DNA from: Alphaproteobacteria bacterium
Lineage (GTDB): Bacteria; Pseudomonadota; Alphaproteobacteria; Rhodospirillales; 2-02-FULL-58-16
Reading direction: 5' to 3'
DNA length: 35,387 nt
NCBI GenBank assembly: GCA_024278615.1
Contig: JAJRSS010000317.1
Span: 1-35,387, forward strand
The translations under genes were made by a program, and so were the position numbers. The notes under the pieces are model-generated. The model was not told where the DNA came from. It searched no databases and saw only the letters and a list, made by a program, of their open reading frames with translations. Positions 11,169 through 35,387 of the stretch are shown in pieces (the first letter of the stretch is position 1; the number at the start of each line of letters is the position of its first letter).

Positions 11169-13238
11169 TTACTCATCAAGGTACCATTGCTGGGCCCTGT
11201 AGGGGTAGGTCCGATAATACTCATAGGACGCAGTTTTGAACTTCGGGAAGTTTTTCAGAGCGTTCCGATGGTAGATCGGCGCGGGCGCCAGTACCGTACC
11301 GATGAACAGCAGGTTTTCGGTCATATTTTTCACCAGACGGGCACCGATCTTGTCGGATTCCGGTGTACCCACGACCGTAGCCTGGAACTTATCGATATCG
11401 GCAATTAGCTGGTAAACGTATTCAGGCGGCTTGACGCCGGCGGAACCATTACTATCGATATATTCGGCCCAAAGCATGCCGGTACGGACTCCAAAATAGT
11501 TCTCGAAGGGTGGCTTTAACAGCTCCGGATTGCCGAGAATAATAGCCAGGGGCTGGCTCTTTCTCCACATCGTTACGTCGAGCTGATTGGCCGACTGGGC
11601 GGAGCGAAACTCGTCCGGTGTCACTTCCTTCGACGTCGTTTTGATGCCAACGTTCGTCCAGTGCTGAGCGACAAGCTCAACGACTTCGCTGGCGAGGCCC
11701 TGTGTCGCGAATTGCAGGTTCAGCACCAACTTGTCGCCATTGGGCAGATCACGATTGCCGTAGCCGTCCTTGTCGACCACGCCGACCTCATCCAGCAACT
11801 TCTTGGCCAGTTTCGGATCGAACTGTGTGTAGTACTGCAACATCTCTTTGGGGACAAACGCCGGCGGCGGGCTGAATACCACATATTGCTTCGGCGTACC
11901 CAGGCCGAAGAACGCGACCTCGTTAATCTCGTCGCGATTGATCGCGACCGACATCGCCTGACGGAACCTTAGGTCGCCGAAGACCTTACGCTTTTCCAGA
12001 TTGGCGGAGGTTACGTTGAAGGCGAAGGTCGGTCCCGCGATCTCCGGCGCAAGGTCGACCGTGTAGTTGCCCTTTTCCGCATTGTCCATGAGAACCGGGG
12101 CGGAGGGCAGGGACAGTGATTGCAGCTTATAGTCGTACTCGCCGTTGATTGCCTTCAAAATCCGGACTTCGTTATCATTGATGTAAACTTCATCCTGTTC
12201 GTTGATGTAGGGCAATTGATTACCGGCCGTATCGACCATGTAGAAGTATGGATTGGCCACATAGTGCCGCCCCTCCGTGGTGTCGGCGACGGTGATGTAG
12301 GATTCCAGCGACGGCTGAATAGCGGCCGGCAGTTTCGCGATCTTGGTAGGATCCTTGAGCATCGGTGACGGCACATCGGTCCAGTCGGACTGGCCGTAAT
12401 AGAAGTTAACGACATCGTAGCCCTTTTCAAAGCCAGCCGCTTTGGCCAGTTTATCCGCATCCGGATTGATCGCCGGGTGGAACCGGCCGAGGAAATGTTT
12501 CGGCTGGAAACCCTGGCCGAAGTGAGTGGCGAAATGAGCCAGTAATCCTGGATAGGGCACCGCCATCGTAAAGCGAACAGTTTGCGGGTCGATTACATCG
12601 ACGACCATATTCTTACCGCCAGGACGCAAATAGTCTTTCGCCTTTTCAATAACGTTTGTGTCCATGTTCAGGTTGTCATACCAGAACTTGACGTCTTCCG
12701 CGGTAAACGGCGCGCCATCGGACCACTTATGGCCCTTGCGCAGGAAGAAGGTGAGCTGGGTGAAATCGTCATTCCACTTCCAGCCTTTGGCGACGTTCGG
12801 CACGATTGTCGCCAAATCATCGGAAAACCGAACGAAATTAACATGCCGTGTCGATAACAGATCCGAGGTGCCGGCTTCTGTCGCGTTTGACAGCATATCG
12901 AAAACGCCGCCATATTTTCCGATGGCGTCATAGGGTGCGACGACCAAGGGCTCATCCGGCAGGCGCTCGGCCAGCGGCGGCAACGACGACGGGTTGCCGA
13001 CAATTCTGGAATTCAGCTTGCCTATCGCCGGGTTCTCGCTGAAAGTCAGCTTGCAATTGGCCAGCTTCTCGAACTCCGCCAACTCGAACTGCTGGGGGTA
13101 TTTGCCCTTGATACCCATGTCTTTGGCTACGGTTACGGCCGGACAGGGCGCCGCCAATGCTTCGGTTGTGGTGCCGGCCTGCGATATCATGAGCGCAAGC
13201 CCAACGAGCGGGATCAATCCCAATTTCTTAGGTGTCAT
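11169..13238 (-). CDS. ABC transporter substrate-binding protein, family 5 (Opp/Dpp type), long form
   Basis: 689 residues; family-5 binding proteins are usually 500-560. An N-terminal signal peptide (MTPKKLGLIPLVGLALMISQ, cleavage probably near ALAAPCP) is followed by a unique region of about 80 residues before the usual core. The core starts with YDAIGKYGGVF and shows KGWKWNDDFTQLTFFLRKGHKWSDGAPFTAEDVKFWY, the family signature. Residues near 405 (FAFNVTSANLEKRKVFGDLRFRQAMSVAINRDEI) are the second hallmark. The first mature residues contain a Cys in APCPAV, but no clear lipobox. GGGAGG lies 8 nt before ATG. It delivers the ligand to the DppBCDF-like complex encoded downstream. The ligand is unknown; the sulfatase in the operon suggests an anionic ester. 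Confidence 0.92.
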   Translation of the reverse strand: MTPKKLGLIPLVGLALMISQAGTTTEALAAPCPAVTVAKDMGIKGKYPQQFELAEFEKLANCKLTFSENPAIGKLNSRIVGNPSSLPPLAERLPDEPLVVAPYDAIGKYGGVFDMLSNATEAGTSDLLSTRHVNFVRFSDDLATIVPNVAKGWKWNDDFTQLTFFLRKGHKWSDGAPFTAEDVKFWYDNLNMDTNVIEKAKDYLRPGGKNMVVDVIDPQTVRFTMAVPYPGLLAHFATHFGQGFQPKHFLGRFHPAINPDADKLAKAAGFEKGYDVVNFYYGQSDWTDVPSPMLKDPTKIAKLPAAIQPSLESYITVADTTEGRHYVANPYFYMVDTAGNQLPYINEQDEVYINDNEVRILKAINGEYDYKLQSLSLPSAPVLMDNAEKGNYTVDLAPEIAGPTFAFNVTSANLEKRKVFGDLRFRQAMSVAINRDEINEVAFFGLGTPKQYVVFSPPPAFVPKEMLQYYTQFDPKLAKKLLDEVGVVDKDGYGNRDLPNGDKLVLNLQFATQGLASEVVELVAQHWTNVGIKTTSKEVTPDEFRSAQSANQLDVTMWRKSQPLAIILGNPELLKPPFENYFGVRTGMLWAEYIDSNGSAGVKPPEYVYQLIADIDKFQATVVGTPESDKIGARLVKNMTENLLFIGTVLAPAPIYHRNALKNFPKFKTASYEYYRTYPYRAQQWYLDE

Positions 13239-22701: not shown

Positions 22702-23604
22702 TCATAGCAGCCCGGCTTTCCCGGCCATTCGGACGAGGTTGCGGTAACCTTTATCGGCATAGGTCAAGGGGTCGGCCTTGGCCGGATCCTGTTCGGCCTC
22801 GACCACCAGCCATCCGGCGTATTCCGCCTGGCGGAGCGCCGTCAAAACGGGATCGAACGCCACCGCCCCGTCACCAGGAACAGTGAATACGCCGTCGATC
22901 ACGGAGTCGAGAAAACTCATGCCCTGCTTCACCGCCCGCGCCGCCACGCCGGTGCGCACATCCTTGCAGTGGACATGAACAATCCGTCCACCGTGCGCCC
23001 TGGCCAATCGGGCCGGGTCGGCGCCGGCGAAAACCGCGTGGCCGGTATCCAGGAGCAAGCCCACGGATGGTCCCGTTTCCGCCATCAGGCGATCAACTTC
23101 GCCTTCGGTTTCGATTACCGTTCCCATGTGATGATGGTAGGCTAGGCGAATACCCCGTCCGGCAAGATCATCGCCCACATCGGTGAGACGGCGGCAAAAT
23201 TCATCCCAGGCGCTGTCCGGCAAAACAGGGCGTTCATTGACGGGCCGTGACCGGTCGCCGTGGATGGCGTTTGACGTTTCGGCGAAGACCATGACCGCGC
23301 AGCCCATGGCAAGCAGCAGTTCCAGGTGCGGCTGCATGGCCTGGATCTCGTCTTCGGCTGAACGGGAAAGCAGCGAGGCGCTGTACCATCCGGAAATAAG
23401 CTCAAGTTCGTGATGTTCCAGGATGGGCGTCAGGATTGCCGGATCACGGGGAAACTTGTTTCCCAGTTCGATGCCGTCGTAGCCGGCCTGCCGGGCCTGG
23501 CGGAGGCAGGTTTCCAGGGGGGTATCGCCGCCCAGTTCGGGCAGGTCGTCGTTCGACCAGGCTATGGGGTTGGTGCCAATGCGAATAGCCATGGGATCAG
23601 CCAT
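22702..23604 (-). CDS. iolE: Inosose dehydratase
   Basis: 300 residues. It dehydrates 2-keto-myo-inositol to the trihydroxycyclohexane-dione that IolD hydrolyses (cofactor Mn or Co). TIM-barrel AP_endonuc_2 protein with the IolE signature GTNPIAWSNDDLPELGGDTPLE and YDGIELGNKFP; metal/substrate residues in LAYHHHMGTVIETE, LLDTGHAVFAG and HVHCKDVR, then LVVEAEQDP. ATG 23604 overlaps the iolD stop by 8 bp; ATG 23592, four codons later, has a better-spaced GGATGG and is the alternative. It is the last gene of the iolBCDE operon. Confidence 0.94.
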   Translation of the reverse strand: MADPMAIRIGTNPIAWSNDDLPELGGDTPLETCLRQARQAGYDGIELGNKFPRDPAILTPILEHHELELISGWYSASLLSRSAEDEIQAMQPHLELLLAMGCAVMVFAETSNAIHGDRSRPVNERPVLPDSAWDEFCRRLTDVGDDLAGRGIRLAYHHHMGTVIETEGEVDRLMAETGPSVGLLLDTGHAVFAGADPARLARAHGGRIVHVHCKDVRTGVAARAVKQGMSFLDSVIDGVFTVPGDGAVAFDPVLTALRQAEYAGWLVVEAEQDPAKADPLTYADKGYRNLVRMAGKAGLL

Positions 23605-25456
23605 CCACCCGCTGGTTTTTCGTTGCCGCGACATAGGCCTCGCGGGCCTGAACCACCTGTTCGCGGCCGGAAACCTGGGGCACGGCCACGTCCCACCAGG
23701 CGCCGCCGTCGCCGGTGCTTGCCATGGGGTCCGTATTCAGCACGATCACATAGGTTTGGTCCGCCCGCCGCGCCCTTTTCAGCGCCGCTTCCAGTTCCGC
23801 GATCCCGGTGACTCGTTCCGAGACCGCGCCGAGGCTTGCCGCATGGGCGGCAAAATCGATTTCAACCTGCCGCTCCGAGCGAGCGTCACCAAGCAGATTG
23901 TTGAACGGAGCGCTTCCGACCGCGTTCTGCAGGCGATTGATGCAGCCGAACCCGCGATTGTCGAGAACGACGATAATCAATTTCCGACCCAGCATTACCG
24001 AGGTCGCGATTTCGGAATTCATCATCAGGTAGCTTCCGTCACCGACCAGCACGAATACCTCGCCGCCGTCTCGGGCCATGCGTACGCCAAGCCCCCCGGC
24101 GATCTCGTAGCCCATGCAGGAATACCCGTATTCCACGTGGTAACCGCCGGCGGCCGGGGTCCGCCATAACTTGTGGAGTTCGCCGGGCAACCCGCCGGCG
24201 GCGCAGACGACCACATCCTCCTTCGTGGGCTCCATATTTACCTGGCGATTGACGGCGCCCAGAACCTGGGCATCCGTTGGCAGGTCCAAATTGGACGGGG
24301 CGGTATACTTGTCCGCCACCGCATTCCAGGCGGTCATTTCGCAAGCGGCCCGGTCGGTCCAGGCGCCGCCAGACTTCCAACCCGCCAGTCCGGCGCTCAA
24401 TTCCCCGAGCCCCCGTCCGGCGTCACAAACCAGGGGAACCGCCCGGTGCTTGACGCTGTCAAACGGGTGAATATTCAACTGAATGATCGTCACCCCGGGA
24501 TTGCCGAACAGGGCCCTGGAGCCGGTGGTGAAATCCTGAAGGCGCGTGCCCACGGCAAGCACCACGTCGGCTTCTCCCGCCATGGTGTTCGCCGCGCCTG
24601 TTCCGGTGACTCCGATGGCGCCAACGCTGCGGGGATGGTCCCATGGCAGCGCCCCCTTCCCCGCCTGGGTTTCGCATACGGGTATTCCGTGGCGGTCGGC
24701 GAAATCACCCAGGACATCACAGGCATCGGCATACAGGACTCCGCCCCCGGCGATGATCAACGGCTTTTCCGCCCGGCGAAGGATGTCCCGCGCCCGGGTC
24801 AACTCATCGGCGCAGGGTCCGGGCCGCCGCTGTCCGTGGACGCGTTCTTCGAACATGGATTGAGGATAATCATAGGCTTCGGCCTGCACGTCCTGGCAGA
24901 AGGCCAGGGTTGCGGGTCCGCAATCGGCCGGGTCAACGAGCGTCCGAATGGCTTGGGGCAGAGAGGTAATGATCTGTTCGGGCCGGGTTATGCGGTCGAA
25001 ATAGCGGCAAACCGGCCGCAAGCAGTCGTTGGCGGTGATGGTGGCGTCCCCAAAGTCCTCCACCTGCTGCAGGACCGGGTCCGGCCGCCGGCTGGCGAAG
25101 ACGTCGCCGGGCATTAGCAGGACCGGCAACCGATTGACGTGCGCCAGCGCCGCCGCGGTGACCATGTTGGTGGCCCCGGGCCCTATGGACGTGGTGCAGG
25201 CCATCATGCGGCGGCGGTAATTCGCCTTGGCGAAGGCGGCGGCGGCGTGGACCATGGCCTGTTCATTGTGTGCGCGATAAGTCGGAAGGTCGTCGCCCGC
25301 GCCGTAAAGCGCCTCTCCCAGGCCGGCAACATTGCCGTGGCCGAAAATGGCCCAGACGCCAGCGAACAGGGGAACCCGCCTGCCTTTGATCTCCACCCGC
25401 TGGCGGCTCAGATAACGAACCACCGCCTGCGCCGCGGTAAGCCGAATGGTCTTCAT
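23597..25456 (-). CDS. iolD: 3D-(3,5/4)-trihydroxycyclohexane-1,2-dione acylhydrolase
   Basis: 619 residues. A thiamine-diphosphate enzyme that opens the cyclic dione to 5-deoxy-glucuronate, the third step of myo-inositol breakdown. N-terminal Pyr domain with AIFGHGNVAGLGEALY and the conserved Glu in HNEQAMVHAA; middle Rossmann-like domain with PLIIAGGGVLYADA; C-terminal PP domain with VEYGYSCMGYEIAGGLG and the ThDP/Mg motif VGDGSYLMMNSEI through NRGFGCINRLQ. ATG 25456 overlaps the iolC stop as ATGA; a longer frame to 25495 lies inside iolC and is not used. Confidence 0.96.
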   Translation of the reverse strand: MKTIRLTAAQAVVRYLSRQRVEIKGRRVPLFAGVWAIFGHGNVAGLGEALYGAGDDLPTYRAHNEQAMVHAAAAFAKANYRRRMMACTTSIGPGATNMVTAAALAHVNRLPVLLMPGDVFASRRPDPVLQQVEDFGDATITANDCLRPVCRYFDRITRPEQIITSLPQAIRTLVDPADCGPATLAFCQDVQAEAYDYPQSMFEERVHGQRRPGPCADELTRARDILRRAEKPLIIAGGGVLYADACDVLGDFADRHGIPVCETQAGKGALPWDHPRSVGAIGVTGTGAANTMAGEADVVLAVGTRLQDFTTGSRALFGNPGVTIIQLNIHPFDSVKHRAVPLVCDAGRGLGELSAGLAGWKSGGAWTDRAACEMTAWNAVADKYTAPSNLDLPTDAQVLGAVNRQVNMEPTKEDVVVCAAGGLPGELHKLWRTPAAGGYHVEYGYSCMGYEIAGGLGVRMARDGGEVFVLVGDGSYLMMNSEIATSVMLGRKLIIVVLDNRGFGCINRLQNAVGSAPFNNLLGDARSERQVEIDFAAHAASLGAVSERVTGIAELEAALKRARRADQTYVIVLNTDPMASTGDGGAWWDVAVPQVSGREQVVQAREAYVAATKNQRVDG

Positions 25457-27378
25457 GCGATGTTCCCTTCCTTTTGAGGGTGTCGCGCCTCGCACCAGGC
25501 GGCTCTCATTTTTTCAAACCTCTCCCCCATTCTGGTGACCGCTTCCTGGTCCGAAATGAGGCCGCCGAACCATTCCCCGGCAACCTCACCGAAGATGGTT
25601 CTGCCGATGGCGAACCCCTTGCACAGGGGCTGGCGGGCGGCGCCCACAATCGCCTGAATGACATCCGCTTCCGGCGCATTCAGGCCCAGCAACAGTATGC
25701 CCCGGCAATAGGGGTCATGTTCAGAAATTGTGGCTGTTATCCGCTCCCAAGCCTGGGGACCGCCGGGATCCTCCAGTTTCCACCAATCCGGATAGACGCC
25801 GATTTCGTAGATTCGGCCGATCACGGCGGCAATGGTTGACGGGTCCACGGGCCCCGCGCTGCCGGCGATCACTTCAAGCAGCAACTCGTGACCTGTCGCG
25901 CGGCAGGCGCTGAAAAGCTGGATGATCCGTTCCTCCTGTTCCCGGCGGAGGTCTTCTGAATCGTCGGGATGGTAGAAGACAAGGCATTTGACCGTATGAT
26001 CCACCGGCCATGCGGCAAGCGTGGTGCCGACATCGGCGCCGCCGTGGAATCGGAGAGGCCTTGAACCGGGAACTTCTATCGGCCGGGCCGTCCACAATCC
26101 GGTATCCGCCGCATCTTCCAGAACTTTCCTCGCGAACATGTCATCGGCGAGGATGCCAACCGCGGAATCGTTTTCGGCCGCGTTCTTGGCGACTTCGAAG
26201 ACCAAATGCTTGAAATCGGAAATACGGCTGTATTGCCCCCCGTGTTCTTCGGCCATTTCCTTGAACTGGGACCGGTGATCGAAAGCCAAGGCCCGGATTT
26301 CCGGCCAATCCTTGCGGCGATTTGTCGCCCAATGGATTTGTTCAAGCCTGGCGTCGTGACGCAAGGCATGTTCCTGACTGCCCACTTTCAAGAAGTAGTC
26401 CAGTTCCGCCCAACTGGGTATGGCCGGGGCGCAGCCATGGCGGGAAACCGTAAGCGCGCCACAGGCGTTGGCGTAACGGCAGCATCGCGAAAGCGGCTCC
26501 CCACGAAGCCACCCCCTCAGGAACCCGCTCATGAAGGCATCGCCGGCGCCCAGCACGTTAAATACCTCGACCGGAAAACCGGGTCCCTGAATACCGTCAT
26601 CAATATTTTCCGGGATCGCGTCGGGAAAGACGACGCAACCCATGGGACCCCGCTTGCAGACGATCACCGCGTCGCACAAGGAACGGACCCGGCGGACGGC
26701 TTCCAGGGTGTCGGTGGTGCCGGCGACGATATGCAGTTCCTCCTCGGTGCCGACGACAAGATCGCATTTCGGAAGGATCGTTTGCAGGTGGGCGGTCACG
26801 GTGTCGGCGGCGATAAAGCGCTCCTCGCCCACGCCGTGACCCGTCAACCCCCACAGGACCGGACGGTAATCGATATCGAAAATGACTTTGGTCCCGGATT
26901 CGCGGGCCAGGCCGATGGCGTGACGGGACGCCGCGTCCACGCCCGGGGCCGAAAAATGGGTGCCGGTGACGACGATTGCCGTGGCGCTGGCGATGAACCC
27001 AGGCTCAATGTCGCCTGGCCGAACGGCCATGTCGGCGCAATTTTCCCGGTAGAAAACAAGCGGGAACGTTTCCCGATCCCGGATGCCCAGGATTACCAAC
27101 GCCGTCAAACGGTCGGGGTCGGTGATGACGTGGCTTGTATCCACCCCCTCGCGCGCCAGTTGCTCGCGGATAAAGCGGCCCATGTGCTCGTCGCCGACGC
27201 GGGTCACCAATGCCGAACGCAATCCCAGCCGGGCCGTGCCTACGGAAATGTTGGTGGGGCACCCCCCGATGTACTTGGCGAAGCTGGCCATATCCTCAAG
27301 CCGGCCGCCGATCTGGTCACCGTAGAGATCGACCGATGACCGGCCAATGCAGATAACATCCAGTGGCCGCTTGGCCAT
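25453..27378 (-). CDS. iolC: 5-dehydro-2-deoxygluconokinase fused to DUF2090 (aldolase-like)
   Basis: 641 residues. The first half (1 to about 330) is a PfkB kinase: ICIGRSSVDLYGDQIG, YIGGCPTNISVGTARLG and the active-site signature NVLGAGDAFMSGFLRGW. It phosphorylates 2-deoxy-5-keto-gluconate. The second half (about 335-630) is DUF2090, a TIM-barrel-like domain with LAFDHRSQFKEMA, ILADDMFARKVLEDA and KGFAIGRTIFGEVAGEW. In proteobacterial iol clusters this domain is annotated as the aldolase acting after the kinase, so one chain may do the IolC and IolJ steps. ATG 27378 directly follows the iolB stop; the stop overlaps iolD as ATGA. Confidence 0.94.
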   Translation of the reverse strand: MAKRPLDVICIGRSSVDLYGDQIGGRLEDMASFAKYIGGCPTNISVGTARLGLRSALVTRVGDEHMGRFIREQLAREGVDTSHVITDPDRLTALVILGIRDRETFPLVFYRENCADMAVRPGDIEPGFIASATAIVVTGTHFSAPGVDAASRHAIGLARESGTKVIFDIDYRPVLWGLTGHGVGEERFIAADTVTAHLQTILPKCDLVVGTEEELHIVAGTTDTLEAVRRVRSLCDAVIVCKRGPMGCVVFPDAIPENIDDGIQGPGFPVEVFNVLGAGDAFMSGFLRGWLRGEPLSRCCRYANACGALTVSRHGCAPAIPSWAELDYFLKVGSQEHALRHDARLEQIHWATNRRKDWPEIRALAFDHRSQFKEMAEEHGGQYSRISDFKHLVFEVAKNAAENDSAVGILADDMFARKVLEDAADTGLWTARPIEVPGSRPLRFHGGADVGTTLAAWPVDHTVKCLVFYHPDDSEDLRREQEERIIQLFSACRATGHELLLEVIAGSAGPVDPSTIAAVIGRIYEIGVYPDWWKLEDPGGPQAWERITATISEHDPYCRGILLLGLNAPEADVIQAIVGAARQPLCKGFAIGRTIFGEVAGEWFGGLISDQEAVTRMGERFEKMRAAWCEARHPQKEGNIA

Positions 27379-28188
27379 TCAGTCAATTCCTTGCGGCCGC
27401 CAGAATGCGGGATTCTCGCCCTGGATCCATTTGTGTTCCTCGGTAAAAACCGGGACCGTGTAGCGATTCCCCGGTAAATGCCGAATGACCCACAAATAAT
27501 ACATGCCGTAACCCGGAGCAGCGCATTGGGGATGATCGAAACCGTCGAAAATCTTGACCGTATCGCACTGTTTTACCTTCAAAACGTCGTCGCCCAGTTC
27601 GGCGTGACCATATCCCTGAGGTTCGGTGAAACGGTAGTGATAGATTTCCGGTTGCGGATGATGGTGGGGCGGGTAGCTTGACCAGCGCCCGGGCAGGGTC
27701 ACCACCTCGCCCAACACCAGTTCAGCGTTGGAGTCGCTGTTGGTATCGTCAAATATGGTCCGCACGAAGCGGTAGCCGGCATTGTCCACCTGTCCGCGCC
27801 CCCGGTGTTCATTGGGCACATCATCGGGCCCATAGAAACGCACCTCGAAGGGTTTGGTGTTGGCGGTGCGGAAGACCGCGATTTCCGATTCGGCCCGTGA
27901 ATCGATGACCACCTTCTCCCCCGCGGCAAGATGAACACAATATGGCGATTGATCGAAGATGGATTGGCGACTGGCAGGCATGGCCTGCCCGGAAACGGTG
28001 AATGTCGCTTCGCCTTGCATCAGCAGGTAGGCGGTTTCGGTTTCGGAAACCGTTTCGAGCTTCTCGCCGGCATTCATGTTGAGGACGGAAAATTCTATTC
28101 CGGTGTTGTCCTCATCTTCATCAAAGCGGGTAACGACGGTATGGCCATGAGCAAAGCCGCCATTGTTTCCCTTGATGTGCAGCACCAT
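27379..28188 (-). CDS. iolB: 5-deoxy-glucuronate isomerase
   Basis: 269 residues. It converts 5-deoxy-glucuronate to 2-deoxy-5-keto-gluconate. A bicupin with metal-binding motifs SSYPPHHHPQPEIYHYRF (His/Glu ligands) and HPQCAAPGYGMYYLWVIRHLPG, both diagnostic of IolB. GGAGG lies about 12 nt before ATG. It is first in the operon iolB-C-D-E, where the genes abut or overlap. The 133-bp leader toward the rpiR-type gene has an inverted repeat AGGGCC (28220-28225) / GGCCCT (28235-28240) and no GGAA-N6-TTCC site, so its promoter may be that of the regulator gene. Confidence 0.95.
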   Translation of the reverse strand: MVLHIKGNNGGFAHGHTVVTRFDEDEDNTGIEFSVLNMNAGEKLETVSETETAYLLMQGEATFTVSGQAMPASRQSIFDQSPYCVHLAAGEKVVIDSRAESEIAVFRTANTKPFEVRFYGPDDVPNEHRGRGQVDNAGYRFVRTIFDDTNSDSNAELVLGEVVTLPGRWSSYPPHHHPQPEIYHYRFTEPQGYGHAELGDDVLKVKQCDTVKIFDGFDHPQCAAPGYGMYYLWVIRHLPGNRYTVPVFTEEHKWIQGENPAFWRPQGID

Positions 28189-28321: not shown

Positions 28322-29149
28322 TCACAAGTCTTCGACCCGCCGGCCAAGCGCAACGACCAGCGTCAGGGCCAGGCACATGGACGCCGACAGCGCCCGGAAA
28401 CCCTCGACCTCCGCATCCCGTACTTCGAGCACTGAATCGGCCATCCGGGCAAGGGGATTCAGCGGGCCATCGGTAATACACACGATCGACGCATTTCGTT
28501 CATGGGCTTCGCGGACCACACCGATGGCCTCATCGGCATAGGGCCTGAAGCTGACCGCGAGAAGCGTATCGCGTGCCTTGATGCAGCTGGCCTGTTCCTC
28601 CAGCATTCCGCCAATGCCATCGATAAGATTTACCGACCGTTGCAGCTTGCCGATGGCATAGGCAAGGTAGGCCGCCACCGGAAAAGACCGCCTAAGGCCG
28701 AGCACGTAAACGATGCTTCCCCCCGCCAGCAGGCTTACCGCCCGTTCCAGTTGTTCCGGGCGGACGGTTTCCCGGAGATGAGCGAGTCCCTCGGTGGCGG
28801 CGACGGAAAAATCGTTAAGCAATGCGAAGGGCGCCGCGCCCTCGAGATCGCGTTGCCGCAGGGCCCGGATTCTTTCGTCATAGCTGGGCTGATGGTCCAT
28901 GAGGCGGGCGCGGAACACCTGCTGCATGGACGAACAACCCTCGTATCCCACGGCCTTGGCGAAGCGGACAAAACTGGAGGGCTGGACGTCGGCAAGATCG
29001 GCCAGTTGGGCCACCGTCTCGAACGCCATGGCATTTGGATTGGCGAGGGCGAATTCCGCGATTTGTCCGAGCCTGGGACTAAATTCGTGGTGCAGGCGCG
29101 ATATTTCATCGCAAAGCTGCTCATAGGCTTCCAGCCCCGATTTGGTCAT
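28322..29149 (-). CDS. RpiR-family transcriptional regulator (IolR-like)
   Basis: 275 residues. The N-terminal HTH_6 domain (about 10-90) has ALANPNAMAFETVAQLADLADVQPSSFVRFAKAVGYEG, the RpiR-type HTH (quoted as its region around residues 30-65). The C-terminal SIS domain (about 130-265) has GSIVYVLGLRRSFPVAAYLAYA and DTLLAVSFRPYADEAIGVV, a sugar-phosphate-binding fold. It lies 133 bp upstream of iolB on the same strand and is divergent from the ABC importer operon. In Sinorhizobium an RpiR-type IolR represses inositol genes through GGAA-N6-TTCC, and that motif occurs in the divergent gap here. It probably senses a phosphorylated intermediate made by IolC. Confidence 0.9.
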   Translation of the reverse strand: MTKSGLEAYEQLCDEISRLHHEFSPRLGQIAEFALANPNAMAFETVAQLADLADVQPSSFVRFAKAVGYEGCSSMQQVFRARLMDHQPSYDERIRALRQRDLEGAAPFALLNDFSVAATEGLAHLRETVRPEQLERAVSLLAGGSIVYVLGLRRSFPVAAYLAYAIGKLQRSVNLIDGIGGMLEEQASCIKARDTLLAVSFRPYADEAIGVVREAHERNASIVCITDGPLNPLARMADSVLEVRDAEVEGFRALSASMCLALTLVVALGRRVEDL

Positions 29150-29211
29150 CTTCGATAGGTCTCCGGCATGACGAAAGGAACGGTTACCTACATTCCAAAT
29201 TTTTCAAATAT

Positions 29212-29225
29212 AGAAAATTCATTCC
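29212..29225. promoter_or_regulatory. Imperfect IolR-type operator near rpiR start
   Basis: AGAA-N6-TTCC, one mismatch to the GGAA-N6-TTCC motif, 63 bp upstream of the regulator start. It overlaps the second CATTCCAAAT repeat. Would fit autoregulation; weak on its own. Confidence 0.35.
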
Positions 29226-29475
29226 AAATAATGTAAATCGTAACGTCGAACAGTTCAAGCCGAAGAGCCTAAGCGGGGAGCCGACTATTCAAACCGCAAC
29301 CAGCAGGCTTCAAAAATGATCACAAAAAATTGGCTAAAAACCAGGGATAATATTTACTGCGGCTCCTTTTTTAAAACACCAGTCATCGATGAATCCCTTC
29401 CACGCAAACGGGGTCGCCGGAACGCTGGCGCATATTACGCCATAATGAAATAAATGTGGCGCTTCAAAAATTATT

Positions 29476-29489
29476 GGAATTTATATTCC
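29476..29489. promoter_or_regulatory. Putative IolR operator GGAA-N6-TTCC
   Basis: GGAATTTATATTCC, a perfect GGAA-N6-TTCC dyad about 98 bp upstream of the importer ATPase start. This is the recognition motif reported for the RpiR-type IolR of Sinorhizobium meliloti. With an RpiR gene and iol genes adjacent, it ties the importer to inositol control. Confidence 0.65.
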
Positions 29490-29586
29490 ATTTACGCAAT
29501 AATTAGATCGAGCTTGCATCCGGCGGGCGCGAATATCGCCGTTTTGCTCAGCGCTGGCAGAGGGGGCGTAGTGAACCGCAAAGATC

Positions 29587-30693
29587 ATGCCCGGTGAATC
29601 TCTGGAAATTCGCGATCTTGTCGTTGGCTACGGCTCGGACGCTCCGGTCCTGAATGGCCTTTCCGTCAATGTCCAACCGGGAGAGATTGTCGCCCTTCTG
29701 GGCGCCTCCGGATGCGGCAAGACCACGCTTTTACGGGCGCTCGCGGGATTCGCGCGGGTGCGGTCCGGCCAGATATTGGTATCGGGCCGGGATACCATTG
29801 ACTTGGCGCCGGATAAAAGAAACATGGCCATGGTGTTCCAGTCCTATGCCCTGTGGCCCCATATGACGGCGGCGCAAAACATTGCCTACGGGCTGAAAAT
29901 ACGCGGCATCCGGCAGGCCGAGGTAAACCGCCGGGTGGAGGCGGTGTTGGCGATGGTCAAGCTGGAGGGGCTGGGCGGGCGCCCGGTGGATAACCTTTCG
30001 GGCGGCCAACGCCAACGGGTTGCGCTTGGGCGGGCCCTGGCGGTGGACCCCCAGATCCTTCTTCTCGACGAACCCATGTCCAACCTGGACGCGCGGGTTC
30101 GCTTCGAGGTTCGCCACGAAATCAAGGCCCTTCAGAAAAAGCTTCGCATCACCACCATACTCGTCACCCATGACCGGGAGGAGGCGATGACCCTGGCCGA
30201 CAGAATCCTGATTCTGGAAGGCGGTCAGGTGGTTCAGGCCGGCACGCCCGAGGAAGTCTACGACCAGCCCAATTCACCCTTCGTCGCTTCATTCATGGGG
30301 GCCGACAATGTCATGCCGGTGGAACTGAGGCCCGAGGAAGGGGCAATCCGCGTCCTCGGAACGGACTGCATCGAGGAAACGGTTCTGCCGCTCGGCGATT
30401 TCGCCGGCGACCGGCCGGCCAATCCCGCGGAAGACGGCGGTGGCTCGTTCATCGTCCATTTCCGCAGCGACGCGGCGACCATTGGAAACGGGGATGCGCC
30501 GCCGCAGGATACCCTGACCCTGCGGGGCAGGGTTACGCAGTGTTCGTATCCGGGGGGAACTTACCGCCATGCCATCGACGTGGGTGGCCAGCGGCTAATC
30601 GTCGACGATCCTCAGCATTACGCCGTCGGAGATGTCGTCGGCATTCGCCTGCCTAAGGCCTCGCTATATTTTTTCCCGGTCAACGCCAGTTGA
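29587..30693 (+). CDS. ABC importer ATPase (PotA/UgpC/FbpC type)
   Basis: 368 residues. Walker A GASGCGKTTLLRALAG (about residue 38), Q-loop MVFQSYALWPHMT, signature LSGGQRQRVALGRAL, Walker B ILLLDEPMSNLD, H-loop ILVTHDREEAMTL. After about residue 240 comes a TOBE_2 regulatory tail (AVGDVVGIRLPKASLYFF). This CUT1/PotA/FbpC type pairs with two permeases and one binding protein, all encoded downstream. A single ATPase with TOBE differs from the fused double ATPase of known inositol importers (IatA type). The ribosome site is weak. Control by the RpiR protein is suggested by the upstream dyad. Confidence 0.93.
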   Translation: MPGESLEIRDLVVGYGSDAPVLNGLSVNVQPGEIVALLGASGCGKTTLLRALAGFARVRSGQILVSGRDTIDLAPDKRNMAMVFQSYALWPHMTAAQNIAYGLKIRGIRQAEVNRRVEAVLAMVKLEGLGGRPVDNLSGGQRQRVALGRALAVDPQILLLDEPMSNLDARVRFEVRHEIKALQKKLRITTILVTHDREEAMTLADRILILEGGQVVQAGTPEEVYDQPNSPFVASFMGADNVMPVELRPEEGAIRVLGTDCIEETVLPLGDFAGDRPANPAEDGGGSFIVHFRSDAATIGNGDAPPQDTLTLRGRVTQCSYPGGTYRHAIDVGGQRLIVDDPQHYAVGDVVGIRLPKASLYFFPVNAS

Positions 30694-30745: not shown

Positions 30746-31900
30746 ATGGTATATCAAAAAATTATACGACTCGGCATAGCTACCGTTATCGCCGCGGGTT
30801 TGATCGGGTCTCCCGCCAGGGCCGAGACCATCCTCAATGTGGCCACGGCCGGCTCGAAAAACATGCTCGATTATGTCACCGACTATCTCGGCCCCATGTT
30901 CGAGAAGCAAAACCCGGGCGTCAAGGTTCGGGCGGTTACCACCGGTCCCGGCGACGCCGGATCGCGCAAGATATTCGACAAGCTGGATGCCCAGAAAAAA
31001 GCCGGTAAGGCCAAATGGGATATTGACGTCGCGGTCGTCCACCAAAAAATGGCCGGCGAAATGGTCCAGGCCGGCCTGCTTGGCACATATCGCAACGATA
31101 TCAAAACCGGAAAGCTGGTGACCCGCGATACCGCCAAGATGGCGTTGGGCACCAACGTTGACGGTTTCGTCATGCCCATGTTCCACAGCCAAACCGCAAT
31201 CGCCTACAACCCCGACCTGGTCAAGAATCCACCCGAGACCTATGACGAGTTGATTGCATGGACCAAAAAAAACCCCAAGCAATTTGGATACAACGGCATC
31301 AAGAACGGCATGTCGGGTGTCAGCTTCGTCGTCGGGTGGATGTACGCCTATACCGGCCAGGCCGACAAGCTGATGAACGGGCCTTACGACCCGTCGGTAG
31401 AGAACAGTTGGGACAGCGTGCTGTCAAAACTGAAGGATTTTAACAAGAACGTTTCCTTCACCCCGGGCAATGCGGGTACGCTGGACATGCTGAACCGCGG
31501 CGAAATCGTCATGGGTCCGGTGTGGGTCGACATGTTCTATTCGTGGCAGGCGCAAGGCCGCGTGCCGCCGAACATGAAGCTGAAACTGATCGGCCCCGGC
31601 ATGCCGGGACAACCCATGTACTATGTCATGCCGGTCAAGGCGGCAAACCAGGACTTGGCGAAGAAGTTCATCGCCCTTGCGACCAGCCCGAAAGTGCAGG
31701 CCGAGGGAATCGTGACCAACTTCAGTTGGTATCCGGGTATTGACGCCCAACATGTGCAACCGACGCTCGATCCGAAAGTATGGGCCAAGCTGTTTACGGA
31801 CGTGACACCCGAAGACCTGGCTTCGAAGGGTAAGGTGTTTCCCATCGCGCCCTATTTCGACGACATCAAGGAAGCCTACGAGAAGAAGGTCGCCAACTGA
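30746..31900 (+). CDS. Extracellular solute-binding protein (PotD/AfuA/Fbp-like)
   Basis: 384 residues from ATG 30746, with TGGAGG six bases upstream; an in-frame ATG at 30632 lies inside the ATPase gene and is not used. The signal peptide (MVYQKIIRLGIATVIAAG) ends near SPARAE. The mature protein starts ETILNVATAGSKNMLDYV and shows FHSQTAIAYNPDLVKNPPETYDELIAW, the SBP family 1/8 hinge region, and MLNRGEIVMGPVWVDM. It binds the ligand in the periplasm for the permeases downstream. The ligand is not evident from sequence; genomic context suggests inositol or a derivative. A stem-loop follows the stop. Confidence 0.9.
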   Translation: MVYQKIIRLGIATVIAAGLIGSPARAETILNVATAGSKNMLDYVTDYLGPMFEKQNPGVKVRAVTTGPGDAGSRKIFDKLDAQKKAGKAKWDIDVAVVHQKMAGEMVQAGLLGTYRNDIKTGKLVTRDTAKMALGTNVDGFVMPMFHSQTAIAYNPDLVKNPPETYDELIAWTKKNPKQFGYNGIKNGMSGVSFVVGWMYAYTGQADKLMNGPYDPSVENSWDSVLSKLKDFNKNVSFTPGNAGTLDMLNRGEIVMGPVWVDMFYSWQAQGRVPPNMKLKLIGPGMPGQPMYYVMPVKAANQDLAKKFIALATSPKVQAEGIVTNFSWYPGIDAQHVQPTLDPKVWAKLFTDVTPEDLASKGKVFPIAPYFDDIKEAYEKKVAN

Positions 31901-31977: not shown

Positions 31978-32823
31978 ATGACCGGCGCCATGGATAAAAA
32001 CCGTTACCTTCCCCTTTTTCTTGTCACCCCGGCGCTTCTGGTCGTCGTCGGCCTGTTCATGTATCCCCTGGGGTATTCGGCGATATCGTCCTTTCAGGAC
32101 AAATCCGGCGCCTGGACATTTGCCAATTTTGAAAAGGCCTTTGACCTTTATTCCCTGGATATCGGCTTTACGGTGCTTATCGTCGTGCTGTCGACGGTCG
32201 CCATTGGGGTTTTGGCCTGCGCCACCGGTGGTTATCTAACCCTTGGTGAAAACCCCCGGGCGGTAGCTGTTTTGAAATGGTTGTACCGCTGGCCCCTTTT
32301 CATTCCCTTCATCGTTGCCGGCCAGTTGATGCGGACTTTCCTGGCGAAGAACGGCATGTTGAACAACATCCTCGTCAGTATCGGCCTTCTGGAGCCTTTG
32401 CAGGCTACCAGCCTTCTTGACTGGCGGGGGATTGTCATCACTTTCGTCTGGAAGCAAACGCCCTTTGTCGCCCTGCTGGTCGCCGGGGCGATGGCGTCGC
32501 TGGACCGATCAACCATAGAGGCGGCGCGCAACCTGGGCGCCGGCCGCGTCCGGATTCTGATTCAGATCATCATTCCCCAGGTACGCCAGACGTTGCTGGT
32601 CGGACTCATTCTGTCGTTTGTCACCATGATGTCGGTGCTGTCCGTACCGCTGATGATCAACGCCGAAACCCCGACCATGATGACCGTGGATATGGCGTTC
32701 CGGATCAACTCCTACGGCGATTACGGGGTCGCCAACGCCCTGGGCTTTATCTCCTATCTGATGGCGGGCTCCGTGGCATGGTTCTATCTGAGCCAAGGGG
32801 TTCGCAAGGGAGAACGGCCATAA
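31978..32823 (+). CDS. ABC importer permease 1 (PotB/CysU/FbpB type)
   Basis: 281 residues. TM1 (YLPLFLVTPALLVVVGLFMYP, about 7-30) precedes a short periplasmic loop with SSFQDKSGAWTFANFEKAF, and five further helices. The EAA coupling loop is EAARNLGAGRVRILIQIIIPQ. ATG 31978 is used; ATG 31990 is an in-frame alternative, and neither has a strong ribosome site. It forms the channel with the second permease. Its TAA overlaps the region where the second permease starts. Confidence 0.9.
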   Translation: MTGAMDKNRYLPLFLVTPALLVVVGLFMYPLGYSAISSFQDKSGAWTFANFEKAFDLYSLDIGFTVLIVVLSTVAIGVLACATGGYLTLGENPRAVAVLKWLYRWPLFIPFIVAGQLMRTFLAKNGMLNNILVSIGLLEPLQATSLLDWRGIVITFVWKQTPFVALLVAGAMASLDRSTIEAARNLGAGRVRILIQIIIPQVRQTLLVGLILSFVTMMSVLSVPLMINAETPTMMTVDMAFRINSYGDYGVANALGFISYLMAGSVAWFYLSQGVRKGERP

Positions 32824-33647
32824 CCAGGATACCCTTATCCCTATCCAGGCGTTTCCAGTGGATCCCCATGGGCATTGTGCTGGGCGGTTTGGCGTTCGCC
32901 ATATTCGGCCCGTTGCTCAACCTGGGTCTGTGGGCGGTGACGGAGAAGTGGTATTACCCGCACAAGCTGCCCCTCGAGTACGGCCTCACGTACTGGGAGA
33001 GAGTGTTCAGGCCGACCGGCAATGCCATGGAATCCCTGTCGACCAGTGTCTCCATCGCCCTGCTGACCGTGATCCTGTGCCTGGCCGTATCCATTCCCGG
33101 CGGCTGGGCGCTGTCGCGGCGCAGCCTGCCGTGGCGCACGGTGATTCTGTTGACTTTCCTGCTACCCCAGGCGTTTCCCAGCGTCGCCGTCTACATCAAT
33201 GTGGCGCGAATTTTCTATACCATCGACCTTAACGGAACCATATTCGGCGTGGTGCTGGTACACTCGGTTCATGGGCTGGTGTTTTCCATTTGGATTACCA
33301 CGGCTTCCTTTGCCGCGGTGGATATCCGGCTGGAGGAGGCTGCGCGCAATATCGGCGCCTCGGGGTTGAGGACATTCTTGACCATAACCATGCCGCTGGC
33401 GGCGCCCGGCATCATGGCCAGCGCCATATTCGTATTTCTGGAATCGTTGGACGAGTTTACCGGAACCTATTTCGTCGGCGTTCCCGACGTGATGACCCTG
33501 CCACTCTTGTTGTTCAGCGCCAGCATGGAAGGAAACTACCAGATCGCTTCGATTACGGCATTGATTCTTCTGGTTCCTTCGGTTGGATTTATGTTTCTTA
33601 TCGAACGTTTTCTGAAAGCCGATGTCTTGGCCAAGGTGGGCAGTTGA
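32778..33647 (+). CDS. ABC importer permease 2 (PotC/CysW type)
   Basis: Up to 289 residues. TM1 is WIPMGIVLGGLAFAIFGPLLN; later helices and the coupling loop EEAARNIGASGLRTFLTITMPLAAPG mark a PotC-type permease. The start is uncertain. ATG 32778 overlaps the first permease by 46 nt and has no ribosome site. AAGGGAG (32806-32812) is perfectly placed for a start at 32820, but the codon there is ATA, overlapping the upstream stop as ATAA; ATG 32868 would cut into TM1. The coordinates use the conservative ATG. The protein from 32820 would begin ITRIPLSLSRRFQWIP. It completes the importer with permease 1, the ATPase and the binding protein. Confidence 0.88.
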   Translation: MVLSEPRGSQGRTAITRIPLSLSRRFQWIPMGIVLGGLAFAIFGPLLNLGLWAVTEKWYYPHKLPLEYGLTYWERVFRPTGNAMESLSTSVSIALLTVILCLAVSIPGGWALSRRSLPWRTVILLTFLLPQAFPSVAVYINVARIFYTIDLNGTIFGVVLVHSVHGLVFSIWITTASFAAVDIRLEEAARNIGASGLRTFLTITMPLAAPGIMASAIFVFLESLDEFTGTYFVGVPDVMTLPLLLFSASMEGNYQIASITALILLVPSVGFMFLIERFLKADVLAKVGS

Positions 33648-33687
33648 TCCATAATGAGAAGCCCAGGCGATGGGCGGCGGAGGTAAC

Positions 33688-34473
33688 ATGAACGGTTCAA
33701 GCGATACCCCCGGCGTGTACGTGGTCACCGGCGGCACTCAGGGAATCGGAGAAAGCATTGCCCTGGCTTTGGCCCGGTCCGGCGCCTCGGGCATAGTGAC
33801 CTGCGGCCGCAACGAGGAAAACGGCGCCCGTGTGGCGGGCGCCGTGGAAGACGCCGGGTCGGCTTGTCTGTTCGTCCGCGCCGATCTTGCCGACCCCGAG
33901 GACTGCCGGGCGGTGACCGCCACCTGCGACGCCAAGTTCGGCCGCATTGACGGCGTGGTGAACGCGGCTGGAATTACCGACCGGGGCACCATAGAAGACA
34001 CTACCGTCGAGGGATGGGACCGGCTTTTCGCCGTTAACGTCCGCGCACCGTTTCTGCTCATTCAAGAGGCGGTCAAAATCATGAAGCGGGATAAAATTCC
34101 CGGCGCCATCGTCAATATTATCACCATGTCCAGCCATGGGGGACAACCGTTCCTGACCGGGTATTCGGCCTCCAAGGGCGCCCTGGCCGTTCTGACCAGG
34201 AACGTCGCCCATGCCCTCAGGGCGGATCGCATCCGTGTCAACGCCGTCAACATCGGCTGGGCGGACACGCCCAACGAGCACCGGGTCCAGGTGGAAACCA
34301 TGGGCCAACCCGAGGACTGGCTGGAAAAGGCCGAGGCGGCGCAGCCCTTCGGGCAATTGATCAAGCCGGCGGAGGTCGCTGAAATTGTGGTTTTCCTGCT
34401 TGGCGGGCGTTCCGGCGTCATGACCGGTTCGGTGATCGATTATGATCAGAACGTCATGGGCGCATACGATTGA
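33688..34473 (+). CDS. SDR-family oxidoreductase
   Basis: 261 residues from ATG 33688, with GGAGGT just upstream; an in-frame ATG at 33670 is weaker. Classical short-chain dehydrogenase: cofactor loop VVTGGTQGIGESIA, NAAGI, catalytic Ser in ITMSSHGG and the YSASK Tyr-Lys pair, then NAVNIGWADTPNEH and the C-terminal SGVMTGSVIDYDQNVMG. Probably NAD(P)-dependent. In this operon, between the importer and an IolG-like gene, it is a good candidate for an inositol-isomer or keto-inositol dehydrogenase, though the substrate cannot be read from sequence. Its stop is 4 nt before the next start. Confidence 0.88.
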   Translation: MNGSSDTPGVYVVTGGTQGIGESIALALARSGASGIVTCGRNEENGARVAGAVEDAGSACLFVRADLADPEDCRAVTATCDAKFGRIDGVVNAAGITDRGTIEDTTVEGWDRLFAVNVRAPFLLIQEAVKIMKRDKIPGAIVNIITMSSHGGQPFLTGYSASKGALAVLTRNVAHALRADRIRVNAVNIGWADTPNEHRVQVETMGQPEDWLEKAEAAQPFGQLIKPAEVAEIVVFLLGGRSGVMTGSVIDYDQNVMGAYD

Positions 34474-34477
34474 GGAT

Positions 34478-35387
34478 ATGGACGTGGATGAAAAAAAAAT
34501 TCGTTTTTGCCAGTTCGGAGCGGGCCGGATCGGCGCCATTCATGCGGGCAACATTGCCCGCCATGGCACCGCCGAATTGATTTTCGTCGTCGACCCGGTT
34601 GCCGAAACGGCCGGCGACCTGGCGGCGCGCCACGGGGCGCGACGGGCAAGCGCCGAGGAAGCATTGGCCAGCGATGAGGTTGACGCCGTTCTCATCGCCA
34701 GTTCCACCGACACCCACGCCGGCCTGATCGAGGCTTCCGCCCGGGCGGGCAAGGCCATATTCTGCGAGAAACCCATAGATTTGGACGCCCGGCGGGTTGA
34801 TCACTGTTTGAAGGTCGTGGAGGATTCAGGCCAGCCTCTCCTTGTCGGCTTCAATCGCCGGTTCGATCCCAGCTTCGCCGCCCTCAAGCACCGGGTCGAT
34901 GCCGGCGAGGTTGGCGACGTGGAGATGGTCTCCATCACCAGCCGCGATCCCGGCTTGCCGCCTTTGGAATACCTGAAGGTCAGCGGGGGTTTGTTCCGCG
35001 ATATGATGATCCATGACTTTGACATGGCGCGATGGCTGTTGGGCGAGGAACCGGTACAGGTTTTTACCGCCGGAAGTTGCCTTGTCGATCCTCAGGTGGC
35101 GGAATTTGGAGATATAGATACCGCCGTTGTAAGCTTGAGGTGCGCATCGGGGCGGCTGGCCCAGATCAGCAACAGCCGCCGCGCCACCTACGGCTACGAC
35201 CAGCGGGTCGAAGTCCTTGGCAGCGGCGGCATGGTGCGAGTCGAAAACCGGACCCCGACTTCCATGGAAGTGGCGACGAAAGAGGGAACCCGGCGGGAAA
35301 ACCCCCTTTATTTTTTCCTCGAGCGGTACGAAGACGCCTATCGCCTCGAATTGGACGCTTTCATCGATGCCTTGCTGGCCGGACGGA
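34478..35387 (+). CDS. iolG: Gfo/Idh/MocA dehydrogenase, inositol 2-dehydrogenase-like (partial)
   Basis: The open frame runs off the right edge after about 303 residues, so the C-terminus is missing. NAD-binding fingerprint CQFGAGRIGAIHAGNIA, then STDTHAGLIEASARAGKAIFCEKPIDLD (catalytic Lys in EKP), and GGLFRDMMIHDFDMARWLLG with the catalytic Asp/His pair. These match inositol 2-dehydrogenase (IolG/Idh), which oxidises myo-inositol to scyllo-inosose, the IolE substrate. ATG 34478 is only 2 nt from GAGG; GTG 34484 has better spacing (8 nt). An A9 run lies in codons 5-8. It probably shares one transcript with the importer and the SDR. Confidence 0.88.
   Translation, partial: MDVDEKKIRFCQFGAGRIGAIHAGNIARHGTAELIFVVDPVAETAGDLAARHGARRASAEEALASDEVDAVLIASSTDTHAGLIEASARAGKAIFCEKPIDLDARRVDHCLKVVEDSGQPLLVGFNRRFDPSFAALKHRVDAGEVGDVEMVSITSRDPGLPPLEYLKVSGGLFRDMMIHDFDMARWLLGEEPVQVFTAGSCLVDPQVAEFGDIDTAVVSLRCASGRLAQISNSRRATYGYDQRVEVLGSGGMVRVENRTPTSMEVATKEGTRRENPLYFFLERYEDAYRLELDAFIDALLAGR

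Follow-up and report, generated by a model that had tools for sequence, protein, structure and literature searches.

The window analysed here is the whole 35,387-nucleotide stretch of contig JAJRSS010000317.1, from an alphaproteobacterial genome. Near its right end, a single 437-bp gap separates an RpiR-type regulator gene (minus strand) from the ATPase gene of an ABC importer (plus strand), and two palindromes lie within this gap. The features of the region are as follows:

22702-23634, minus strand: iolE; the true start is probably an internal ATG
23597-25495, minus strand: iolD; the true start is probably an internal ATG
25453-27378, minus strand: iolC fused to DUF2090
27379-28188, minus strand: iolB, a divergent member of the KduI/IolB family (116.8 bits, under the 205-bit equivalog cut-off)
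28322-29149, minus strand: iolR, RpiR-type regulator (HTH and SIS domains), named from its domains and from relatives near iol genes
29208-29237, minus strand: weak promoter-like TTTACA-N18-CTATAT before iolR, which was picked out by eye and which the scanner did not report
29211-29226: putative left IolR operator, minus-strand reading TGGAATGAATTTTCTA, 9/10 letters of TGGAA-N6-TTCCA
29474-29503, plus strand: promoter-like TTGGAA-N18-AATAAT of the importer operon; weak
29475-29490: putative right IolR operator, the 16-bp palindrome TGGAATTTATATTCCA, 10/10 letters of TGGAA-N6-TTCCA
29587-30693, plus strand: ABC importer ATP-binding protein
30746-31900, plus strand: ABC importer solute-binding protein, SBP_bac_8, with a signal-peptide-like start; orthologues 57-73% identical
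31978-32823, plus strand: ABC importer permease 1
32778-33647, plus strand: ABC importer permease 2
33670-34473, plus strand: SDR oxidoreductase, whose relatives adjoin iolG in several other IolR loci
34488-35387, plus strand: iolG, myo-inositol 2-dehydrogenase, cut by the contig end

The leftward unit has the gene order iolR-iolB-iolC(DUF2090)-iolD-iolE. Its IolB is 54-61% identical to the IolB of ten other IolR loci (of Steroidobacteraceae type, and some others) and only 25-32% identical to the remaining matching IolB proteins, so that two IolB subfamilies seem to exist. In the rightward unit, the genes for the ATPase, the binding protein, the two permeases, the SDR and IolG lie on the same strand, and by ORF coordinates no two neighbours are more than 77 bp apart. 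Because the importer genes continue into the SDR gene and iolG, the importer and inositol dehydrogenase genes are probably co-transcribed. IolG, with its start codon taken from the sequence reading, scores 411 bits against TIGR04380 (cut-off 355). No phosphatase or phosphodiesterase gene is present between the importer and the contig end.

The regulator combines an SIS domain (65.9 bits, cut-off 25) with an HTH_6 domain scoring just below its cut-off (27.3 against 28.3 bits), the pair of domains that characterizes an RpiR-type IolR. Relatives with approximately 38-51% identity adjoin iol genes in S. meliloti (iolR-iolCDEB), Asticcacaulis, Sphingobium and Azospirillum, and the three other RpiR paralogues found in the window's own genome (G000; 3,456,966 bases) diverge in the HTH stretch common to the IolR relatives. 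Judged by neighbourhood and identity, the gene is an IolR homologue.

A single-protein scan of the genome contigs gave 420 pattern matches, none of them a relative of the regulator; the relatives were found by an alignment scan. We gathered 86 loci in this way, at least 80 from genome contigs and 6 from plasmid records, and with a hand-made list divided the matches listed into 41 non-enteric and 45 Enterobacterales loci. All counts by locus given below for IolR relatives likewise hold among the matches listed. When matches had to reach E 1e-30 over 40% of the query and lie no more than 7 kb away (the strict threshold), an iol gene was found at 36 of the 41 non-enteric and 44 of the 45 enteric loci, and five non-enteric stretches had no clear iol gene. 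The loose threshold brought the non-enteric count to 39 of 41, one of the three additional loci depending on a 25% iolG match. The regulator and its relatives are thus found with iol catabolic genes (in the window iolB, iolC, iolD and iolE), as is typical of IolR. By our own reading, SDR-iolG neighbours occur at 8/41 non-enteric loci. In one genome, two divergent IolR-like genes are separated by about 240 bp, and one of them has an iolC-like neighbour (L003 and L018, G014:C23).

The core of the right site, GGAATTTATATTCC, occupies 29476-29489 and matches GGAA-N6-TTCC at 8/8 letters; the site lies 96 bp from the importer ATG. The core of the left site, AGAAAATTCATTCC, occupies 29212-29225 and matches at 7/8, and this site lies 61 bp from the iolR ATG, so neither is more than about 100 bp from the gene that opens its divergent unit. 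The initial annotation had described precisely this arrangement, a perfect dyad facing the importer and a 7/8 copy facing the regulator gene, and both coordinates and matches are correct; since the sites are palindromes, "facing" can mean only "nearer to". The left site has the common half-site variant TTCTA, which also occurs upstream of IolR relatives, including the S. meliloti record (TGGAACATCCGTTCTA) and one Devosia. A direct repeat, CATTCCAAAT, is present at 29191-29200 and 29220-29229; its second copy includes the left-operator half-site and its first stands isolated between the left operator and iolR. The right site spans most of the TTGGAA hexamer and the spacer of the importer's promoter-like sequence, and the left site sits in the spacer of the TTTACA-N18-CTATAT sequence, overlapping its second hexamer. 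Promoter-like matches of this kind are weak features (four in an 801-bp region against a shuffle mean of 1.0).

The motif had been identified as that of the RpiR-type IolR of Sinorhizobium, which agrees with the literature. In the available text of PMC2597717, GGAA-N6-TTCC is defined in the Caulobacter IolR regulon and is found computationally upstream of the S. meliloti iol genes; mutation of one copy in the Caulobacter iolC promoter raised expression and mutation of a second had no effect. The IolR sites of S. meliloti were identified by Kohler and colleagues, as cited in PMC8877191.

A genome-wide scan for the motif, proposed in the initial annotation, gave a divided answer. The bare core is non-specific: perfect GGAA-N6-TTCC occurs 155 times in the genome against 82 for a control pattern, and the window contains 31 copies having at most one mismatch, against 20.1 +/- 5.0 in shuffles, of which 2/100 reach 31. 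A further perfect copy lies inside iolE (23450-23463), where its 16-mer matrix score is only 9.9 and where it is most likely due to chance. With the core this common and a perfect copy within iolE, we dropped bare-core counting as evidence; the initial annotation, which used the bare core, had not noticed this, and the case for the sites is nevertheless stronger than it claimed. The site becomes specific once the outer T and A are added: TGGAA-N6-TTCCA occurs 12 times in the 3.46-Mb genome against 3 for the control, with ten copies in script-called ORFs, one beside a TetR gene, and one at the right site. The Caulobacter sites mutated in PMC2597717 likewise have the outer T and A, as far as the available text gives them. 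A tighter consensus, TRGAAHNWWNDTTCYA, derived from the relatives' matrix but written after both sites had been seen, has four matches in the genome against none for its control, and two of the four are the left and right sites.

The operator matrix itself was built from 31 distinct best sites at the relatives' loci in other genomes, with the window excluded; at least 8/10 of the TGGAA-N6-TTCCA letters were required, so it leans to the consensus. Among all 16-base positions of the window, the right and left sites rank first and second, scoring 23.2 and 20.8, and the third-best position, at 12761 in a coding region, scores 14.1. Neither site's score was reached at any of 707,440 shuffled positions or in any of 2000 dinucleotide shuffles of the gap. 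The frequency of the bare core in genome and window might invite the view that both sites are chance palindromes of an AT-rich gap, but the gap shuffles, and the presence of two of the four genome-wide consensus matches within one 437-bp gap, make this hardly credible. The best candidate for iolA in the genome, a methylmalonate-semialdehyde dehydrogenase gene on contig C298, has no operator in its 4.4-kb locus (best score 7.8); the gene appears operon-internal, and the 4.4-kb stretch excludes the operon start.

The same site recurs upstream of the IolR relatives. In the 400 bp upstream and with a spacer of 6, 11/86 loci have a perfect site and 34/86 one of at least 9/10, against 0/86 and 1/86 in the coding sequence of the same loci. 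Sites of at least 9/10 are concentrated in the non-enteric loci (26/41, versus 8/45 in the Enterobacterales). Dinucleotide shuffles of the 41 non-enteric upstream regions yield a 9/10 site in 0.8% of cases, and the other ten spacers from 2 to 12 give such sites at 0-5 of the 41 loci. The window's palindromes have this GGAA-N6-TTCC form and stand upstream of iol units, as expected of IolR operators, the left copy with one core mismatch. At some loci of relatives (L069-L073, L075, L077, L091, L131), the region before iolR contains two to four operator-like sites, the distance between them often being about 20, 60 or 80 bp, which suggests cooperative arrays.

A regulator of another family, of LacI or TetR type, could in principle bind both sites instead, and a perfect 16-mer elsewhere in the genome does adjoin a TetR gene. 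That explanation is highly improbable, given that the gene next to the window's sites is itself IolR, that IolR relatives are preceded by such a site as well, and that a LacI-type gene lies within 5 kb at only 2 of the 41 non-enteric IolR loci. The perfect copy elsewhere, TGGAACATACGTTCCA at L051:1872-1887 (G000:C143), is located between the TetR gene and a gene of the carboxymuconolactone-decarboxylase family, and is perhaps an operator of that TetR protein. As judged from the sequence comparisons, both sites in the gap are IolR operators with high probability.

We searched for orthologues of the importer in the class (385 genomes), in the window's order (317), in the order of a distant genome, G228 (397), and in plasmid records (8 taken). 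This gave 64 loci, 63 of them distinct (L186 = L194), with 63 rows scorable (L191 excluded). The orthologues share 57-73% identity, and the next matches in the class search fall to about 32% or are short pieces. Outside the window, the region before the ATPase gene exceeded a matrix score of 20 in one of the 63 scorable rows, that of G228 (21.8), and in none of the other 62; lesser scores were 17.1 (L180, within a neighbouring gene), 14.5 (L300) and 14.1 (L189). G228 has three TGGAA-N6-TTCCA sites in 3.5 Mb against one for the control: one before the importer orthologue, one just upstream of iolR on another contig, and a third at C1:166248. We found no iol gene at the G228 importer locus. The importer adjoins iolD, iolG and an SDR gene in G161 and iolD and iolE in G166, with best operator scores of 14.1 and -2.9, respectively. 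Since a LacI-type regulator lies within 5 kb at 42 of the 63 distinct importer loci, control of the importer by IolR looks like an exception.

The perfect site, the same-strand linkage to iolG (a gene that the initial annotation had not reported at the end of the importer operon), and the G228 site before the same importer support the original proposal that this unusual importer belongs to the iol regulon, and in this organism it most likely does. The right site might alternatively be an auxiliary operator, a looping partner for the iolR operon that leaves the importer itself unregulated. The site centres are 264 bp apart, or 25.1 turns at 10.5 bp per turn, a spacing of about 25 helical turns that would allow looping, and several sites lie upstream of iolR in some relatives. 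Against this, the right site overlaps the importer's (weak) promoter-like sequence, and the G228 site stands directly before the importer at a locus without a detected iol gene, so we regard a purely auxiliary role as very unlikely.

We therefore favor, with high confidence, the view that the palindromes are operators of the adjacent RpiR-type repressor IolR, through which it would control both divergent units. Without inositol, IolR would occupy both operators, which overlap the promoter-like hexamers, and would block RNA polymerase at both units, its own gene included; such steric repression with autoregulation is the simplest mechanism compatible with the layout. When inositol is catabolised, a pathway phosphate would free IolR from the operators; PMC8877191 cites 2-deoxy-5-keto-gluconic acid 6-phosphate for this role in S. 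meliloti, whose model we follow here. Release of IolR would then turn on uptake, first oxidation and ring cleavage together. As the importer would share the IolR switch with iol catabolism, it most likely carries inositol or an inositol derivative.

An importer controlled by IolR could still carry a solute unrelated to inositol. The importer is mostly found away from iol genes (they are near it at 2/63 distinct loci), and the LacI-type regulators at the 42 loci noted above also fit such a solute. Several observations argue otherwise: the same-strand iolG link in the window, the iol neighbours in G161 and G166, the operator before the importer in G228, and a gene of the inositol monophosphatase family within 5 kb of the importer at 16 of the 63 distinct loci. 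Moreover, a PF13407 search found no CUT2-type binding protein in the window's genome or in G228, the one match at cut-off in the former being a LacI regulator and a second, partial match lying below it; another inositol importer, such as an IolT-type symporter, may exist. On balance an unrelated solute appears unlikely, and inositol or a derivative remains the preferred substrate.

The neighbours of the importer in other genomes offer some indication of which derivative this may be. Within 5 kb of it, an MBL-fold phosphodiesterase-like gene occurs at 7/63 loci and a 2H-type cyclic-phosphodiesterase-like gene at 13/63, never both at the same locus (0/63), a mutual exclusion of the two folds that is only suggestive. 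At an equal threshold, neither phosphodiesterase lies within 5 kb of iolR at the 41 non-enteric and 45 enteric loci; for 20/63 importer loci against 0/41 non-enteric IolR loci, Fisher's test gives p ~2e-5, a value that is too small because related genomes were counted separately. These phosphodiesterase and inositol-monophosphatase neighbours suggest a phosphorylated inositol as substrate.

Importers of the AfuABC type are present at 7 of the 41 non-enteric IolR loci (L058, L059, L060, L066, L067, L083 and L136). All seven stretches also contain an inositol-monophosphatase-family gene, which in five of them is no more than 5 kb from iolR; none of the 34 others has one. A strong IolR operator precedes iolR at six of the seven, the exception being L083, and at L066 and L067 the strict threshold reveals no clear iol catabolic gene. 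In G228, the binding protein aligns with the sugar-phosphate-binding protein of PDB 4R72-4R75 at E 1.6e-97. As we read this alignment, assuming an offset of two, it retains both the His-Asp pair and the Glu residue described as essential for AfuA in the available text of PMC4546632. From these neighbours and AfuA-like residues, a phosphorylated inositol is a reasonable guess for the substrate of both the window importer and the AfuABC-type importers. Titles and the opening parts of abstracts in a literature search held no report of inositol-phosphate import, and the word "inositol" is absent from the main text of the AfuABC paper.

More tentatively, IolR regulons might possess a phosphorylated-inositol branch, with an inositol phosphate entering through the window importer, a diesterase and a monophosphatase converting it to myo-inositol for IolG, and AfuABC-type importers (with inositol monophosphatase) at other IolR loci representing a second solution; we consider this possible rather than probable. 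If it were true, the substrate would perhaps be inositol 1,2-cyclic phosphate or another phosphodiester, and IolG would be fed by inositol monophosphatase together with a cyclic phosphodiesterase, for which other genomes show two unrelated folds.

Compared with known importers, that of the window stands apart. Among named families, its ATPase and permeases match 2-aminoethylphosphonate importers (PhnSTUV, PhnT2) best, yet all proteins fall under the curated equivalog cut-offs (PhnT2 326.9/457.7, PhnV 70.8/358.7 bits), the binding protein furthest (PhnS, only 29.6/395.3). In a profile search of solved structures, the binding protein gave four weak matches to maltose-binding proteins, and folded alone it reached a mean pLDDT of 40.9. 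AfuABC, a sugar-phosphate importer, belongs to the ferric/phosphonate-like group of ABC importers. The window's system is likewise an ABC importer, and AfuABC-type systems occur with an inositol-monophosphatase-family gene at the seven IolR loci above; it differs from them in having two permease genes rather than one fused permease, and a binding protein of another family than the SBP_bac_6 of AfuABC (23.8 bits against SBP_bac_6, cut-off 24.6). IbpA, finally, is of the CUT2, or Peripla_BP_4, kind. The IbpA-IatA-IatP system shares with the window's importer the role of an ABC importer inside an IolR regulon, whereas the latter has a binding protein matching SBP_bac_8 and SBP_bac_1, not Peripla_BP_4, and two separate BPD_transp_1 permeases. 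By its domains, it is thus of a type other than the CUT2 type known from IolR regulons.

Ordinary IolR sites would here connect a defined pathway with an importer family that has, as far as we found, no named substrate, and this link narrows the substrate to something yielding inositol. With the IolR systems of Caulobacter crescentus and S. meliloti, as described in the available text of PMC2597717, the window shares the regulator family, the iol neighbours, the operator sequence, and its position upstream of both iol and transport units. The motif-bearing importer there is IbpA-IatA-IatP, whereas the window has an unrelated ABC importer in its place, one with a link to iolG. The operator and the regulator are therefore of known kinds, and the new part is the class of importer inside the IolR regulon.
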